This document shows, piece after piece, positions 8,268-29,142 of a stretch of DNA of 36,600 bases. Positions within the stretch are counted from its first letter, which is position 1, and every line of letters starts with the position of its first letter. The notes beneath the pieces were generated by a model. It worked only from the letters and a program-made list of their open reading frames with translations, did not search any database and was not told the DNA's origin. Both the position numbers and the translations under genes were made by a program. Source of the stretch: Candidatus Buchananbacteria bacterium RIFCSPHIGHO2_01_FULL_44_11 (lineage in GTDB: Bacteria; Patescibacteriota; Patescibacteriia; Buchananbacterales; UBA6539); assembly GCA_001817345.1 (NCBI GenBank), contig MHIE01000021.1:1-36600 (forward strand), given 5' to 3'.

Positions 8268-8296
8268 ACTATAGCATATTTTTATAACCTTGTCAA
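8268..8296 (-). promoter_or_regulatory. Near-consensus extended -10 promoter of the receiver gene
   Basis: On the minus strand: TTGACA, 17-nt spacer, TGC then TATAGT. Confidence 0.8.
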
Positions 8297-8342
8297 ATAT
8301 TAGACTTTACTATATACTGTAAAAGCATTAAAATACCTACCT

Positions 8343-8504
8343 ATGAGTTTTGTAAAAAAAATTTTCGGGGACCCCGCCCTCAGTCCGAATAATTTTATCC
8401 AGGATTTTCATAGGTTATTCCCCGGAGTCGCCTGCGGCTTACTGTTTTTAGTAACGTCGTTATTGCCAAAACTGAGAGCGGGGCGAGACGAGGATTATAA
8501 TTAG
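8343..8504 (+). pseudogene. Truncated copy of the secA 5' end fused to a CCCCGC-ended element
   Basis: The first 11 codons ([11 protein letters not shown]) nearly repeat the start of the intact secA at 8532 ([11 protein letters not shown]), with identical DNA from GTAAAAAAAATTTT to GACCCC. After GACCCC the similarity stops abruptly and the element at 8372-8483 begins. The frame stays open to a TAG at 8504, giving a 53-aa hybrid peptide. No SD or distinct promoter is seen. I read it as a recombination scar, though translation of the short ORF cannot be excluded. Confidence 0.65.
8372..8483. mobile_element. CCCCGC-ended inverted-repeat element (copy 1)
   Basis: The left end CCCCGCCCTCAGT and right end ACTGAGAGCGGGG are inverse with one mismatch. 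The 112-bp element carries no gene of its own. The right end is followed by CGAGACGAGG and ATTAT, as in the second copy at 28033. Both copies contain a GTCGCCTGCGGC/TCCGCCTTCGGC-like stem. There is no transposase, so if mobile it is non-autonomous. No flanking target duplication is visible. Confidence 0.6.
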
Positions 8505-8531
8505 AATAAACAGACATTCTTATTTTATTCT

Positions 8532-11270
8532 ATGAGTATAGTAAAAAAAATTTTCGGGGACCCCAATGAAAAATTCCTGCGGCAGCTTTCACCAATAGTT
8601 AAACAAATCAACCAATTGGAAGCCTCAATCACCGCTTTGTCGGATCAGCAACTTAAAGAAAAAACCGAGGAATTCAAAAAACAACTCCAAGCCGGCAAAA
8701 GTCTGGATGACATTTTGCCGGAAGCTTTTGCCTGTGTTCGGGAAGCGAGCCGGCGGACGCTAAGCCAGCGGCATTATGACGTTCAATTGGTCGCCGGTAT
8801 GGCGCTGCATCGCGGCCAAATCGCGGAAATGAGAACCGGCGAAGGCAAAACCTTAGCTGCGACTTTGCCGCTTTACCTTAATGCTCTGGAAGGCAAAGGG
8901 GCGCATTTGGTGACGGTTAACGATTACTTGTCCAGTCGGGACTGCGGCTGGATGGGCCCGATTTATCATTTACTTGGTTTAAGCAGCGGCGTGATTGTCC
9001 ATGACCAGGCTTTTATTTTTGATCCCAGTTACGTTAACGAAAGTCATCAGGATGAGCGTCTGAGTCATTTAAAACTGGTCAGCCGCAAAGTTGCTTACAA
9101 CGCCGACATTACTTATGGCACTAACAATGAGTTTGGCTTTGATTACCTGCGTGACAACATGGTTCAGACTGTTGAGCAGATGGTTCAGAGGGATTTGCAT
9201 TATTCCATTGTTGACGAAGTGGATAGTATTTTGATTGATGAAGCGCGCACGCCGCTGATTATTTCAGCGCCAGACATGGAATCCACAGAAAAGTATCATC
9301 AGTTCGCCAAACTAGTCACTAAACTGCAGGAAGGCGAAGATTATAACGTTGATGAAAAAATGCGGGCAGCCACGTTGACCGAAGAAGGCATTAACAAAAT
9401 GGAAAAGCTTTTAGGCGTGGAAAACATTTATACTGACCGCGGCATATCGGAAGTTCATCACATTGAGCAGGCTTTGCGCGCCCATGCTTTGTTTAAAATA
9501 GACCGCGATTACGTGGTTAAAGACGGCGAAGTGATTATTGTTGATGAATTTACCGGCCGGCTGATGTATGGCCGGCGCTACAGCGAAGGGCTACATCAGG
9601 CCATTGAAGCTAAAGAAGACGTGGAAGTCCAAAGAGAAAGCCGGACACTGGCGACTATTACTTTTCAAAATTATTTCCGGCTTTATAAAAAACTAGCCGG
9701 CATGACCGGTACGGCCGCGACTGAAGCCGAGGAATTTTTTAAAATTTACAATTTGGAAGTGACGGTTATTCCGACCAATAAACCAATGGTCCGGACGGAC
9801 TTGGCTGATCGGATATATAAAAATGAAGAAGGAAAATTCCAGGCGGTGGCTCAAGAGATCCGGGAGCGGCACCAAACCGGCCAGCCAATTTTAATCGGTA
9901 CAATTTCTATTGAAAAAAACGAGCGGCTGGCCGCTTTACTTGAACGCGAAGGCATTCAGGCTCAGACGCTTAACGCCAAGCAGCACGAAAAAGAAGCCCA
10001 AATCATTGCCCAGGCCGGCAAACTGGGAGCGGTCACGGTGGCCACTAACATGGCCGGTCGCGGCGTTGATATTAAATTAGGTGGGGATCCGTCTGATCCG
10101 GCTGAAGAACAAAAAATTAAAGACCTGGGCGGTCTGCACATCATCGGCACCGAGCGGCATGAATCGCGCCGGATTGATAATCAGCTGCGCGGCCGGTCCG
10201 GCCGGCAAGGGGATCCGGGTTCAACTCAGTTTTATGTTTCCATGGATGACGATTTGATGCGGATTTTTGGTTCTGACCGGATGAAAGGCCTAATGGAACG
10301 GCTGAAAGTACCCGACGATATGCCGATTGAAAATCGGCTGATTTCCCGGTCGCTGGAAGCGGCTCAAAAAAAAGTGGAGAGCCACCATTTTGACATTCGC
10401 AAACACTTGGTTGAGTATGACGATGTTATTAATAAGCACCGGGAAACAATTTACAAAAAACGCAAAGAAATTCTAACTTTGTCGGATTTGAAAGACAAGG
10501 TTTTGACTTTAGTGATGTCAGAAATTAAGGCGGTGGTCAATTTTCATACCGCTTCTGACGACGAAAATACCTGGAACATTGAAGAAATTTACGAAGTGGT
10601 TAACACCATTTTCCCCATACCCACCGCGGTTCGCTTGAAACTCAGCGATATTGCTCAAGAAGCCGGCACCAGTATTGAAGACAAAACTTCTCGGGGTAAG
10701 TTGATCGGCTATCTTTATAAATTGGCCGTTGATTATTATAGCCAAACAGAAGATAGAATCAATCAGTCGGCCGGCAGTCCAGAGGCAATGCGGCAAGTGG
10801 AAAAAGGCATTATGCTGCGCAGCATTGATACTTTGTGGATTGAGCATCTGGAAGCGATTGATCATCTGCGCACCGGCATTGGTTTGCGCGCTTATGGTCA
10901 GCACGATCCGTTGGTGGAATATAAACGCGAGGCTTATGGTTTATTTAAAGAGCTCTTGGCTTTAGTTCAAAAGCAGGTGGTTTACAGCATTTTCAAAGTC
11001 GGCGTGGCCACCCAGATGGCGCCCAGTGTCATGCAGCAGGCGGCCAGTCACGCCACTTTCCAGGCGCCGGCTAAAACTATGGCTGAAGGCCAGTCCGCCA
11101 TTGCCGCTATTAGTCAAAACCAAGCCACGCCTCAGCAAAAAGAAGTGGCAAAACGCCAGTCGCAGCTGCCGACTGACGACACCACTCACTATCAAGGCCA
11201 GAAAGTTGGCCGCAACGACCCGTGTCCATGCGGTAGTGGCAAAAAATTTAAAAAGTGCCACGGGGCGTAG
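8532..11270 (+). CDS. secA: Protein translocase ATPase SecA
   Basis: SecA is the motor that pushes preproteins through SecYEG. The 912-aa product has [10 protein letters not shown], Walker A MRTGEGKT (residues 100-107), the DEAD-box-like [15 protein letters not shown], and later [25 protein letters not shown] of the second nucleotide-binding fold. It then has the helical scaffold and wing, a Gln/Ala-rich linker, and the C-terminal zinc-binding SEC-C motif [20 protein letters not shown]. The domain order is complete. There is no SD; the ATG follows a T-rich leader. A partial copy of its first codons lies 189 bp upstream, and sequences resembling its last codons recur downstream. Confidence 0.97.
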
Positions 11271-11589: not shown

Positions 11590-11628
11590 GATAGTCCTGC
11601 GGACACAGAAACAAAATTAAGAAGTGTA

Positions 11629-11904
11629 ATGAAAAATAATATGGATAATCTGGAACAACGAATCCAAAAAATAGAAGAAAGAAACCTTAAAGTTGAACAG
11701 GATAAGGCTTGGGAAACCAGCTGGACTCGGCGGATTTTACTTTTAGTTTTTACTTATCTAGCCATTGGTGTTTATCTTCGGGCAATTGACATCACCCAGC
11801 CCTGGCTTAATGCTATCGTGCCGGCCGTGGCTTTTATGATCTCAACTTTGACCGTACCTTTTTTTAAAAAGTTGTGGTTGAAAATTTTTGGGCATCAGCA
11901 ATAA
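11629..11904 (+). CDS. Small coiled-coil membrane protein
   Basis: The 91-aa product has an N-terminal charged helix likely to form a coiled coil (DNLEQRIQKIEERNLKVEQ), then WETSWTRR. Two hydrophobic segments follow, separated by AIDITQPWLN, and the tail is basic. The family is unknown to me by function, although similar small proteins are frequent in Patescibacteria. It starts at a copy of the AGAAGTG motif shared by several gene junctions here. An alternative ATG at 11641 would remove four residues. Confidence 0.7.
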   Translation: MKNNMDNLEQRIQKIEERNLKVEQDKAWETSWTRRILLLVFTYLAIGVYLRAIDITQPWLNAIVPAVAFMISTLTVPFFKKLWLKIFGHQQ

Positions 11905-11918
11905 ATGCTAGAAGTGTC

Positions 11919-12335
11919 ATGGAAAATAAAAGGCAAACATCGATATTAATACCGTATAAAATAGAGGGCGATAAAATTTTAGTGTATCTGCAAAAACGAT
12001 CAAAAGATGCTAAACGATCGCCTGATTATTTTGGATTTTTTGGCGGTGGCTTAGAAAACGACGAAAATCCAGAACAAGCGCTGCAAAGGGAGATGAGAGA
12101 GGAGATTAATTTGGTGCCAGCTGGTTATAGCTTTTTTGGAAAATATGAATTTGAGCGAAGTATCAAGCATATTTTTATCCTTGAAGTAGATGATAGTTTT
12201 GAGCAGAAGATACAAATTTTGGAAGGGGACTATGGTCGGTACTTTAGTGAACAAGAAGTCTCTGACGAACCTAAACTAATCGAGGAAGACAAAGTAGTCT
12301 TGGGAGATTTATTCAAAAAGTGCCACGAGGAGTAG
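11919..12335 (+). CDS. Nudix hydrolase
   Basis: The 138-aa product has a near-complete Nudix box, GGLENDENPEQALQREMREE, followed by INL. The invariant Gly near its end is replaced by Asn, while the metal-binding REMREE core is intact. Such enzymes hydrolyse nucleoside diphosphates linked to another group; the substrate cannot be told. The ATG at 11919 sits in an AGAAGTGTCATGG junction motif. The last residues, FKKCHEE, are encoded by DNA almost identical to the end of secA (FKKCHGA), so the 3' end may have been replaced by recombination. Confidence 0.8.
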   Translation: MENKRQTSILIPYKIEGDKILVYLQKRSKDAKRSPDYFGFFGGGLENDENPEQALQREMREEINLVPAGYSFFGKYEFERSIKHIFILEVDDSFEQKIQILEGDYGRYFSEQEVSDEPKLIEEDKVVLGDLFKKCHEE

Positions 12336-21915: not shown

Positions 21916-22012
21916 CCCCGTTAGAGTTTACGGCGCTTTATCAAGATCAATTCCTCTTTCCTGGCTTATGGGGGATGATTTCTATTATCAGCCCTATAAA
22001 ATTCTAACGGGG
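21916..22012. mobile_element. CCCCGTTAGA element at the rplJ -35 box (97 bp)
   Basis: The termini CCCCGTTAGAGTTT and AAATTCTAACGGGG are inverse with one mismatch. The flanks are TTGG on the left and TTGA on the right, a near-perfect 4-bp duplication. The right TTGA is the start of the TTGACA -35 box. The element has no ORF. Confidence 0.75.
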
Positions 22013-26009: not shown

Positions 26010-26139
26010 CCCCGTTAGAAATCGATGATTGATTCTAAAATGTCATATTTATTTGATATTTGCAATAAAGCCAATCGGTATCCAGTATTCAAAAACCGAT
26101 AACCGTTCATAATTTTTTTATTCTTAATTTCTAACGGGG
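26010..26139. mobile_element. CCCCGTTAGA element at a start codon (130 bp)
   Basis: The termini CCCCGTTAGAAAT and ATTTCTAACGGGG are a perfect 13-bp inverse pair. The exact 4-bp duplication TATG lies at 26006-26009 and 26140-26143. The right copy supplies the ATG of the next gene. The interior has an ATCGGT/ACCGAT stem and no ORF. Confidence 0.85.
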
Positions 26140-26140
26140 T

Positions 26141-26743
26141 ATGCTTGAACAACTTTTTGGTTCAAAAACCCGGGTGAATTTATTGGGTTTATTTTTGAAT
26201 AACCCCGCCCAGCCTTACTACCTTAGACAGCTGGCCCGGAAATTTAAGATCCAGCTTAACTCCATTAGGCGTGAGGTTGAAAATTTAGAGAAATTCGGTG
26301 TTATCAAGTCAGTGAGTCAACCCCAGGCGGAGCCGGGGAAAAGATCGGTCAAGGCAAAAAAGCCGGGGAGTAAGAAGTATTTCTTGGCTAACACCAGTTT
26401 TATTCTTTACCCCGAGCTTAAAGCCTTATTGATTAAAGCCCAGCTGCTGTTGGAAAAAAGTTTTGTCCGGGAAGTGGAAAAGATGGCTCGGTTGAAACTT
26501 TTGATTCTAACCGGTATTTTTGTCGGCCGGGAGGGTTTTGCCACCGATATCTTGCTGGTGGGTGGCGTTAACCATCGCCGGCTATCGTTTTTAATTAAAA
26601 GGTTTGAAAAAGAGCTGAACCGAGAGATCAATTATACGGTTATGACTTATCAGGAGTACAAATACCGTCACGATATCACCGATCGGTTTCTTTACGAAAT
26701 TTTGGGCGGCAAAAAAATTGTGATTGTCAATAAACTGGATTAA
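26141..26743 (+). CDS. Winged-helix regulator with a nucleotidyltransferase-like C-terminal region
   Basis: The 200-aa product begins with a winged helix-turn-helix of ArsR/MarR style (FGSKTRVNLLGLFLNN, YYLRQLARKFKIQLNSIRREVENLEKFGVI). A Lys-rich linker follows, then a C-terminal part with LILTGIFVG and ATDILLVGGVNHRRL, recalling MNT-type nucleotidyltransferase folds without a clear catalytic GS/DxD. Its ATG is the target duplication of the element just upstream, so its original promoter and leader have been moved 134 bp away. The hydrolase gene follows after 2 nt. Confidence 0.75.
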   Translation: MLEQLFGSKTRVNLLGLFLNNPAQPYYLRQLARKFKIQLNSIRREVENLEKFGVIKSVSQPQAEPGKRSVKAKKPGSKKYFLANTSFILYPELKALLIKAQLLLEKSFVREVEKMARLKLLILTGIFVGREGFATDILLVGGVNHRRLSFLIKRFEKELNREINYTVMTYQEYKYRHDITDRFLYEILGGKKIVIVNKLD

Positions 26744-26745
26744 TT

Positions 26746-27561
26746 ATGTATTTTCATGTTCTCCGTCGTTATTTGAGGATGAAATTTTCAGGCTCGGCCC
26801 GGCGGGTTGAGTTAAAAAATAATCAAGGCCGAAAAATTGTCGGCCTCATTGATTTGCCTAAAAACCAAGGCCGATCGCCGGTGGTTGTCATCTGCCACGG
26901 CTTTACCGGCTACAAAGAGGAAATTCATTTGAAGAGTTTAGCTCAAACCCTGGCTAAAAACGGTATTGCCGCCATGCGCTTTGATTTTACCAACGAAAGA
27001 GGGGAAAGCGACGGTACGATTGAAGACATCAATTTCAGCCAAGAGCTGGCGGACTTGAAATCCGTCATTGATTTTATTTCATATCAGGGTTTTATTGATC
27101 CGGCCCGGATTGGTCTGGCCGGTCACAGTATGGGTGGCCAGGTCGCCTTGACTTATGGGCCGACCGATCCGCGGATTAAAGTCTTGGCCGATTTGGCCGG
27201 CGTGGCTTATCGCGGCGCTCAAGACACGGAACTGGAAAAAAAATTACGGGGTAGAGCCGATCATTTTCAAAAAAATGGTTTTTTATTCATCTGGGGTTAT
27301 AAAATTAAATTTGATTTTTATACCGATCTACTCAAGCACGATACTCTCAGTCAAGTGAAAAAAATCAGCATCCCGACTATCATTGTCCACGGCCGGACTG
27401 ATCGGATTGTGCCTTTGAAACATTCTCAGACGGTTTACGAAATTTTAAGGGAACCTAAGCGGCTGGTGGTAATTGACGGTATGCCTCATACCTGGCGGCA
27501 ACCGATTCACTATAAAAAAGTTAATCCTTTGGTCGCGGAATGGTTTAAAAAATATCTATGA
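26746..27561 (+). CDS. Alpha/beta hydrolase (serine esterase/peptidase-like)
   Basis: The 271-aa product has the full hydrolase layout: VVICHGFTGYKEE with the oxyanion loop, GLAGHSMGGQVAL with the nucleophile Ser in GHSMG, an Asp in VHGRTDRIVP and the catalytic His in DGMPHTW. It resembles the dienelactone hydrolase/YqiA-type group. The substrate is unknown. It is 2 nt after the regulator and overlaps tsaB by 4 nt (ATGA), so the three are co-transcribed. Confidence 0.87.
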   Translation: MYFHVLRRYLRMKFSGSARRVELKNNQGRKIVGLIDLPKNQGRSPVVVICHGFTGYKEEIHLKSLAQTLAKNGIAAMRFDFTNERGESDGTIEDINFSQELADLKSVIDFISYQGFIDPARIGLAGHSMGGQVALTYGPTDPRIKVLADLAGVAYRGAQDTELEKKLRGRADHFQKNGFLFIWGYKIKFDFYTDLLKHDTLSQVKKISIPTIIVHGRTDRIVPLKHSQTVYEILREPKRLVVIDGMPHTWRQPIHYKKVNPLVAEWFKKYL

Positions 27562-27983
27562 TTCTTGTTATCAATACGGCTGACGCTAAAAAAGTTTTTA
27601 TTGCTTTAGTTAAGAATGGTCAGGTAGTTCTTAAAAACAATTTTTTAGCCCATCATCGTCAGTCAGAAACATTATTGTCAGCCATAGAGAAAATTTTAAA
27701 AACAGCTAAAACTACGAGCCAAAAACTCCGGGGGATAATCGTCGCTTTGGGACCCGGGCCGTTTACCGCTTTGCGCATCGGAATTGTCATCGCTAATACC
27801 TTATCTTATGCTTTGCAGATTCCGGCCGCCGGCGTTAAATTAACCGGTTTGGAAACTGAGGATGATTTTATTCAGGCGGGTTTGGCCGAGCTGAAAGGCA
27901 AGCGGGGAGTTAGTATTTTAACGCCATTTTACGGCCAGCCACCCAATATTACAAAGTCCAAGCAGCTAAAAGACAACAGCTGA
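27558..27983 (+). CDS. tsaB: TsaB (YeaZ), t6A tRNA modification scaffold
   Basis: TsaB pairs with TsaD to make N6-threonylcarbamoyladenosine on tRNA. The 141-aa product has MILVINTADAKKVFIAL, then HHRQSETLLSAIEKIL and the signature ALGPGPFTALRIGIVIANTL. It is shorter than typical enzymes (about 230 aa) and lacks most of the second half. This shortness is common in Patescibacteria, so it need not be truncated here, although the last residues (YGQPPNITKSKQLKDNS) could be a replaced tail. Confidence 0.83.
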   Translation: MILVINTADAKKVFIALVKNGQVVLKNNFLAHHRQSETLLSAIEKILKTAKTTSQKLRGIIVALGPGPFTALRIGIVIANTLSYALQIPAAGVKLTGLETEDDFIQAGLAELKGKRGVSILTPFYGQPPNITKSKQLKDNS

Positions 27984-27991
27984 ATTAATTT

Positions 27992-28078
27992 ATGCCCAAC
28001 AACAATAAAAAGATTTTGCTTGTCGAAGATGACCCCGCCCCAAGCTCGCGAATCACTGTCTTGATGTCAGTTGTTTAG
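27992..28078 (+). pseudogene. Truncated response-regulator 5' end fused to a CCCCGC-ended element
   Basis: MPNNNKKILLVEDDP repeats the start of the intact regulator at 28289 (MSNSNKKILLVEDDP). The DNA differs at synonymous sites, as between paralogs. Similarity ends exactly at GACCCC, where the element at 28033 begins, and the frame stops at 28078. This mirrors the arrangement at secA. Confidence 0.7.
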
Positions 28079-28149
28079 GGGGGGGGCGCGGAATCCGCCT
28101 TCGGCTGCCACCCGCTAAATCGAAATTTGTTTCACAGTTTGGAGCGGGG
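28033..28149. mobile_element. CCCCGC-ended inverted-repeat element (copy 2)
   Basis: The left end CCCCGCCCCAAGCT and right end AGTTTGGAGCGGGG are inverse with two mismatches. The right flank is CGAG, then a nested CCCCGTTAGA element, then CGAGACGAGG with ATTAT, the same right flank as copy 1 at 8484. There is no ORF beyond the fused fragment. The interior has a TCCGCCTTCGGC stem like copy 1. Confidence 0.65.
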
Positions 28150-28153
28150 CGAG

Positions 28154-28250
28154 CCCCGTTAGAGTTTCCGGCGTCATGTCAATAACTAATCTGGATTAAT
28201 TTATAACCGACCAACTACGCATAATCCAGCCTCGTTAAACTCTAACGGGG
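28154..28250. mobile_element. CCCCGTTAGA element nested in copy 2 flank (97 bp)
   Basis: The termini CCCCGTTAGAGTTT and AAACTCTAACGGGG are a perfect 14-bp inverse pair. The exact 4-bp duplication is CGAG at 28150-28153 and 28251-28254. An inner CTGGATTA/TAATCCAG stem is present. It has the same length as the element at 21916, and both begin CCCCGTTAGAGTTT followed by (A/C)CGGCG. Confidence 0.85.
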
Positions 28251-28288
28251 CGAGACGAGGCATTATTTAGTCTTAATTAATAGGTTTT

Positions 28289-28675
28289 ATGTCAAATAGT
28301 AATAAGAAGATTCTATTGGTCGAAGATGACCCCGACTTGTTGTTTTTAATGAAAAAGAAACTGACAGACGAACATATTTTTGAAGTCATCACTGCCGAAA
28401 CCGGCCAGCAAGCTTTGGAGCTGATTAATTCTCAGCCGCCTGATTTAATTCTACTTGATATTTTGCTGCCGGATATTGACGGCATGACAATTTTAAACGA
28501 CATCTCCAGCCGGCCGGAGACTAAAAATATTCCCGTGATTATTTTAAGCAACTTGGCCGATCAGGGCGCTTTTGAACAGGTAGCCGCCATTGGTCATTAC
28601 GAGTATTTGATTAAGGCAAAAACTGAATTGCAAGAAGTGGTAAAAAAAATCAAAATCCGTTTAAACATTAATTGA
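28289..28675 (+). CDS. Single-domain response regulator
   Basis: The 128-aa CheY-like receiver has the acidic pair in LLVEDDPD, the phosphoacceptor Asp in LILLDILLPDIDG and the switch Ser in IILSNLAD. The C-terminal Lys is in YLIKAKTE. There is no output domain. An N-terminal fragment of a paralog lies just upstream, so a tandem pair probably existed. No kinase gene is in the window. Confidence 0.9.
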   Translation: MSNSNKKILLVEDDPDLLFLMKKKLTDEHIFEVITAETGQQALELINSQPPDLILLDILLPDIDGMTILNDISSRPETKNIPVIILSNLADQGAFEQVAAIGHYEYLIKAKTELQEVVKKIKIRLNIN

Positions 28676-28693: not shown

Positions 28694-28848
28694 TGTCATT
28701 GCGACCCCGCCGTTTCTGTTTAACTAAAGATAAACAGAAACGGCGGGGGAAGCAATCCCCTTGGCAAGATAGACCCCTCGGTCCCCTCGGGATGACGCTT
28801 CGCGTCAGATTGCTTCGTCGCTCACTGTCGTTCGCTCCTCGCAATGAC
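28694..28848. repeat. TCATTGCGA...TCGCAATGA repeat with an internal 18-bp hairpin
   Basis: Outer TGTCATTGCGA and TCGCAATGAC are inverse and enclose GAAGCAATC and GATTGCTTCG words. The same repeat type is at 34242-34337. Inside, 28705-28748 is a perfect 18-bp inverted repeat ending CCCCGCC/GGCGGGG with an 8-nt loop, which interrupts the repeat after GCGA. Confidence 0.75.
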
Positions 28849-28897
28849 TAAAATATATTAAATTAAAGACTAAAAACGAATTTCGTATTCACGCTTG

Positions 28898-29048: not shown

Positions 29049-29142
29049 CCCCGTTAGAAATTTGATTTAGAAAGGATCATTATTAATCTTTTTATCTTAT
29101 TTTATTGAAATATTTCTTGATTTCTCGGAATTTCTAACGGGG
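29049..29142. mobile_element. CCCCGTTAGA element at the mraZ -35 box (94 bp)
   Basis: The termini CCCCGTTAGAAATT and AATTTCTAACGGGG are perfect inverses. The exact 4-bp duplication is TTGA at 29045-29048 and 29143-29146. The right TTGA begins the TTGACA of the mraZ promoter. The interior is AT-rich without an ORF. Confidence 0.88.

Follow-up and report, generated by a model that had tools for sequence, protein, structure and literature searches.

A hairpin and, on its 3′ side, an arm of about 72 nt lie at gene starts or −35 boxes in at least 23 loci of five genera (genomes G000, G004, G005, G007 and G017, part of each genome having been examined), and we consider it somewhat probable that this combination is a small insertion at GA|C, which replaces the gene start or the −35 box that it enters. 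The targets are varied: secA, thrS, tsaD (in two genera), lepA, response regulators, glycosyltransferases, −35 boxes and a cobalamin-riboswitch promoter. It should be remembered that the genomes are incomplete and that stretches of them were sampled, so that genome-wide locus counts are lower bounds. Two of these loci are in the window, i.e., the whole 36,600-nt stretch of DNA analysed here, and we describe them before turning to the class as a whole.

The first, a response-regulator locus (RR1), follows a tsaB-like gene (27558–27983, + strand; Pfam PF00814 match), the operon neighbour of the regulator on its 5′ side. The same gene is the immediate 5′ neighbour of the regulator in five sister genera (G001, G003, G006, G007 and G008), where the tsaB–regulator site has no insert; this empty site excludes a tandem regulator reduced by ordinary deletion without any element. 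In the window, the remnant of the native RR1 start, MPNNNKKILLVEDD (27992–28032, +; ATGCCCAACAACAATAAAAAGATTTTGCTTGTCGAAGATGA; repeat D5), begins 8 nt past the tsaB stop and ends in GATGA|. Next comes the hairpin element E, of 121 bp (28033–28153, +), which reads CCCCGC...GCGGGGCGAG and has the ends CCCCGCCCCAAGC...GGAGCGGGGCGAG, also read as CCCCGCCCCAAGC...TTTGGAGCGGGGCGAG; counted to the last G of GCGGGG, it measures 117 bp, the length given in an earlier note on this DNA. A MITE-like element of the CCCCGTTAGA type (CCCCGTTAGAG...CTCTAACGGGG, 97 bp, 28154–28250, no strand assigned) is nested behind it. Because CGAG is duplicated on both sides of this nested element (left 28150–28153, right 28251–28254, +), it must have arrived after the RR1 hairpin, as the note had proposed. 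On its 3′ side, the sequence continues with ACGAGG and then with the right arm of 75 nt (28255–28329, +; arms measure 69–75 nt at 22 loci), composed of an AT-rich leader and a replacement start, MSNSNKKILLVED, up to GATGA|. The intact response-regulator gene (28289–28675, +; receiver domain only, Pfam PF00072, Response_reg, E 9e-23) has its ATG at 28289, and the equivalent of the left junction is at 28329|28330. The start repeat covers 49 nt, with 80% identity between the remnant and the intact copy. Every part that the note had described was found at this locus. Further along the window, at 28703–28860, a palindrome CCCCGCCGTTTCTG...CAGAAACGGCGGGG lies within a GTCATTGCGA...GAAGCAATC repeat, and similar palindromes are present elsewhere in the genome.

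The secA locus (8343–8560) has the same plan of remnant, hairpin, arm and intact gene, all on the + strand. A promoter, TTGTCA N17 TATACT (8290–8318), is located 5′ of the start remnant (MSFVKKIFG, 8343–8371; repeat D2), which runs to GGGGA|; it is followed by the 116-bp secA hairpin element E (8372–8487) and by a 73-nt right arm (8488–8560, from the arm measurement) carrying the replacement start, with ATG at 8532, of the intact secA (8532–11270; NCBIfam NF009538/TIGR00963). A MutT-like protein is encoded downstream, at 11874–12335 of the window; over its last 25 nt, which read KFKKCHEE, the gene shares 88% identity with the end of secA, and the C-terminus of the protein is probably a SEC-C motif.

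A search of G000, the genome of the window (943 kb, 78% complete), with the right end of the hairpin gave two further loci, namely a second response regulator (RR2) and thrS. The small size of this genome and the genes that it contains suggest a member of the Patescibacteria. The start repeat and element of RR1 are thus not a chance arrangement, since secA, these two G000 loci and sister genera share the architecture. In relatives, it was found at tsaD, at one reading frame, at two adjacent response regulators and at one glycosyltransferase with two successive insertions, the same site in its start having been invaded twice; searching seven genomes for CGGGGCGAG then contributed lepA, two MRIGID glycosyltransferases and tsaD from another genus, as well as the cobalamin-riboswitch promoter and G007 copies located in promoters or spacers, and a third response regulator of G004 is the 23rd locus. 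The tsaD insertion is present in both G004 and G005, and the RR1 insertion in both G000 and G004. In an unbiased scan of 792 kb that gave 427 imperfect direct-repeat pairs, 21 pairs had CCCCG where their left copy ends, compared with 4 that had it where the right copy ends. At L030 (G004 C29, 1294–1585), we also observed a second, older element with the end CCCCAGCAC...GTGCGGAG at the same AATCTGCAGA site, a repeated insertion at one target.

The exact 15-mer CGGGGCGAGACGAGG is present in 4 of the 381 genomes of the wider class, and the hairpin tail as such is therefore rare. When bacterial and archaeal genomes were scanned with CGGGGCGAGACGAGG, the hits among the matches listed were mostly chance ones, in high-GC genomes; viral contigs gave chance matches alone, with the architecture absent. 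Further stretches of G002, G003, G007, G009, G017, G025 and G084 contained no additional gene-start case, and the openly licensed literature yielded nothing relevant on such elements in this bacterial group.

The intact copies define the target site: the junction is preceded by A in 21 of 21 copies and by G before it in 19 of 21, and is followed by C in 16 of 21, giving the common site GA|C. The earlier note had suggested that the element may integrate at GACCCC or recombine through it, a reading in which element and target would have this hexamer in common, and it is indeed found in the intact copies of the window's secA and RR1. It is found in only one more of the 21, the first copy of a nested glycosyltransferase pair, in which CCCC belongs to the next element, and it is absent at RR2 (GACGAA), at thrS (CACACC), at tsaD, at lepA and in the promoters. 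With 3 of 21 sites having GACCCC, the hexamer is not required; it is a property of secA and RR1 and not of the class, and recombination mediated by it, refuted as a general rule, is almost certainly not the explanation.

The hairpins, of the form CCCCG...CGGGGCGAG, range from 20 to 261 bp (one G004 glycosyltransferase hairpin has 114 bp), and their sequence differs among loci. Ten larger copies, both window copies included, nevertheless align as a single repeat family with a central GGCGCGGAGTCGCCTTCGGCTT; the alignment of the two CCCCGC elements that the note had called for thus places them together. The matching ends that it had described are confirmed by a 14-bp terminal pairing kept in 92% of cells, with five pairs changed on both sides in a compensatory manner, whereas sliding the pairing register abolishes the end pairing. 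Compared with shuffled sequences, the secA hairpin folds 3.3 sd better (z −3.3) and the RR1 hairpin of the window 2.0 sd better (z −2.0). No ORF of integrase size and no endonuclease ORF was seen in the inserts (hairpin of 20–261 bp plus 72 nt), nor was an ORF-bearing copy found. Rfam matched no family over the elements of nine loci (E ≤ 1), and a known structured RNA element was rejected on these grounds. Within G004, the RR1 and tsaD hairpins are 84% identical; the RR1 hairpins of G000 and G004 share 54% identity. Because of these two values, the RR1 insertions of G000 and G004 look independent, though the same codon was invaded; the values also count against our preferred explanation in one respect, as they poorly suit strictly gene-specific lineages bringing their own starts.

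A nearly constant distance characterizes the class. If its length is counted between the last base of CGGGGCGAG and the position equivalent to the left junction, the arm is 69–75 nt long at 22 loci (mean 72.05, sd 1.49) and 74 nt at the 23rd, the first 11 arms having been measured without any distance constraint. When the left junction was fixed at the hairpin and distances from 30 to 120 were tried at 41 hairpin sites in an unbiased manner, 15 matches of at least 5 nt fell at 69–75, against 0.06 matches per distance outside this range. Neither the hairpin nor the start codon sets the spacing, since hairpins vary from 20 to 261 bp and the distance from ATG to junction varies from 16 to 56 nt among loci. 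Four promoter copies of G007 repeat only 5–6 nt of their target (TTGA at the −35 box), and their arms still measure 69–71 nt.

A transposition with a long target-site duplication of about 72 bp, the outer part of which diverged afterwards, would yield a constant distance of this kind together with an in-register match at the junction. We regard it as decidedly unlikely: arm positions 31–72 resemble the sequence left of the junction (similarity 0.31–0.36) as mismatched pairs do (0.29–0.34), and it is this lack of resemblance beyond the last 30 nt that disfavours the duplication. The lepA copy of G004, a young one, comes close to refuting it, with a perfect 35-nt match by the junction and an unrelated outer arm, and the mainly synonymous changes described below are unlike the neutral decay of one copy.

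Three comparisons bear on which start belongs to the invaded gene. The promoter motif CTTGTCAA lies 5′ of secA in G002, G003 and G004; in the window, it lies 5′ of the remnant, and no promoter of this kind is present in the secA arm. In G004, the remnant of tsaD, ATGATAATTCTCGGC..., agrees with the form that the intact gene takes in G000, G001 and G008, while the working start, MSKNVNRIILGIESSCDE, differs from the remnant and resembles that of G010, from another family. The RR1 remnant adjoins tsaB, as the intact regulator does in the insert-free sister genera. As promoter, tsaD start and tsaB adjacency all fit the left copy, these sequence comparisons show that the left start is native and the right one a newcomer. 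Homing of the CRISPR-transposon type, in which the left copy would be a guide and the right copy native, was considered and rejected, since the same three comparisons put the native start at the left.

A comparison of remnants with working starts at 14 coding loci, covering 110 proximal codons, gave 20 synonymous and 7 non-synonymous single-base differences, where a synonymous share of 20% is expected at random (P = 2e-9). The note had reported such synonymous differences between fragment and intact gene, and one recent simple duplication is rejected on these grounds, the differences being almost all of this type. Its reading as an old paralog or a conversion came close; what it missed was the polarity, with the native start at the left and a newcomer at the right at a fixed distance of 72 nt. 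Remnant and working start were apparently both functional while they diverged, and an imported homologous start, or an insertion guided by homology, would fit this pattern.

One may also see in the start mimic and the hairpin a regulatory leader of the downstream gene, either an attenuator or an upstream ORF, acting in cis and conserved by selection. The orientation to the gene is constant, always at 5′ ends, the paired ends covary, the amino acids of the mimics are conserved, and the arrangement is present in the orthologous RR1 of G000 and G004 and tsaD of G004 and G005. On the other hand, other sister genera have an empty site, and the left starts are in part decaying, with the ATG lost in two and a frameshift in one (RRb of G007, gt1 of G017 and the third response regulator of G004, the remnant of which is frameshifted); moreover, promoter copies are without any ORF, Rfam gives no match, and the 72-nt ruler is left unaccounted for. 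We therefore find a regulatory leader rather unlikely. Similar odds apply, in our opinion, to ordinary homologous recombination after DNA uptake, according to which each gene received one old insertion, the left start being the recipient's and the right start the donor's. This would account for the synonymous divergence and for the perfect identity at the lepA junction followed by an abrupt loss, but not for an equal 72-nt distance in independently invaded genes and promoters, and its origin still needs the ruler. Such recombination can, however, operate on top of the insertion that we favour.

According to the favoured explanation, an insertion would occur at GA|C, either within a −35 box or shortly after the beginning of a gene, and the native start on its 5′ side would be severed and left as a remnant. 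The terminal portion of the arm repeats the target in register, over 5 nt in promoters and up to about 45 nt in genes, and the arm would supply a replacement, either a −35 box or a leader with a start codon and first codons, so that the invaded gene would stay expressed. Both RR1 and secA would have been invaded in this manner in the window, the CCCCGTTAGA element entering CGAG behind the RR1 hairpin at a later time. What the sequences show is the architecture, the ruler, the target preference, the polarity of the two starts, their largely synonymous divergence and repeated insertion at one site. From this we infer that hairpin and arm form one mobile unit, inserted in trans by a site-specific recombinase or nuclease; the start-bearing arms would originate in homologous genes of related strains, and presumably only those insertions that restore their target survive.

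Bacterial MITEs and the palindromic elements of Rickettsia are short, non-coding, have palindromic ends and are found inside genes of reduced genomes, and MITE target duplications abut the inverted repeats. The hairpins described here resemble MITEs in their terminal inverted repeats (the 14-bp paired ends), but their target repeat is situated about 72 nt beyond the right inverted repeat at 22 loci instead of abutting it. The dusA-specific genomic islands enter a conserved gene at its 5′ end, for which they supply a substitute together with a promoter; the original end is kept as a remnant, the direct repeats are imperfect and of about 21 bp, and excision restores the native gene (PMC4482086). 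The present inserts likewise provide the gene with a substitute 5′ end, the native one persisting as a remnant, as the secA promoter and tsaD comparisons indicate. However, dusA islands are large, with their own tyrosine integrase and a single target gene family (PMC4482086), whereas the present units are of about 90–340 bp, have no ORF or integrase, enter many genes and promoters, and possess the hairpin and the 72-nt ruler. In the mobile ORFs (mORFs) of the mitochondria of the fungi Allomyces and Glomus, the insert is a diverged piece of the homologous gene, with mostly synonymous changes and an in-phase fusion; the displaced native piece persists and matches relatives. These inserts replace the 3′ end of the gene and encode a homing endonuclease (PMC3630166). 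Here too, the inserted part appears to be a diverged homolog and the native part matches relatives (most strongly for tsaD, and by the synonymous pattern for other genes), but it is the 5′ end or −35 box that is replaced, without an endonuclease ORF. The present elements would thus work like dusA islands and mORFs, yet they belong to neither.

Other inserts were observed in the same genomes. Three CCCCGTTAGA copies of the window have the inverted repeats of a MITE and a 4-bp duplication (CGAG, TTGA and TATG, respectively), and a fourth has TTGG/TTGA. The copy at 26010–26139 is placed exactly at the start codon of an ORF at 26141, which is restored because TATG was duplicated by the insertion; those at 29049–29142 (TTGA duplicated) and 21916–22012 (TTGG/TTGA) both leave a −35-like TTGACA at their right. 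At L238 (G000 C6, 402–667), a complete 5S rRNA gene is contained in a broken 5S gene, the outer 5′ part being followed by the CCCCGCCC inverted repeat, the inner 5S, GGGCGGGG and the outer 3′ part; the inner copy differs from the outer one at 1 of 38 nt in the 5′ part and at 0 of 49 nt in the 3′ part, and its terminal stem is changed but compensated. Intact tRNA genes for Ala, Val and Gln, with flanking inverted repeats, are likewise nested in a broken copy of the same tRNA, with insertion points in the D, anticodon, variable and T loops (L041/L223 in G004 C38; L231, ~11620–12020, and L238, 3478–3730 and 4230–4590, minus strand, in G000; L228, 6540–6780, minus strand, in G017); the insertion of tRNA-Val in the D-loop is common to G000 and G017. 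These tRNA and 5S cases have CCCCG inverted repeats as in the gene-start elements, but the gene sits inside the hairpin; they may reflect the same process acting on RNA genes.

Essential genes are usually free of mobile elements. Here, insertions appear to have entered secA, thrS, tsaD and lepA close to the start codon; these genes remain open because the insertion brings a new start. We would tentatively propose, as a possibility short of an even chance, that Patescibacteria-like genomes harbour a distinct class of minimal mobile DNA, an ORF-less hairpin with a 72-nt ruler arm that inserts at GA|C and carries or copies the start or promoter it displaces, even in essential genes. The 72-nt spacing, found across five genera, offers a direct handle on the enzyme and makes the mechanism testable. 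The annotation of these reduced genomes is also affected, as they contain spurious start codons upstream of genes, nonfunctional remnants of starts, and broken copies of tRNA and 5S genes.
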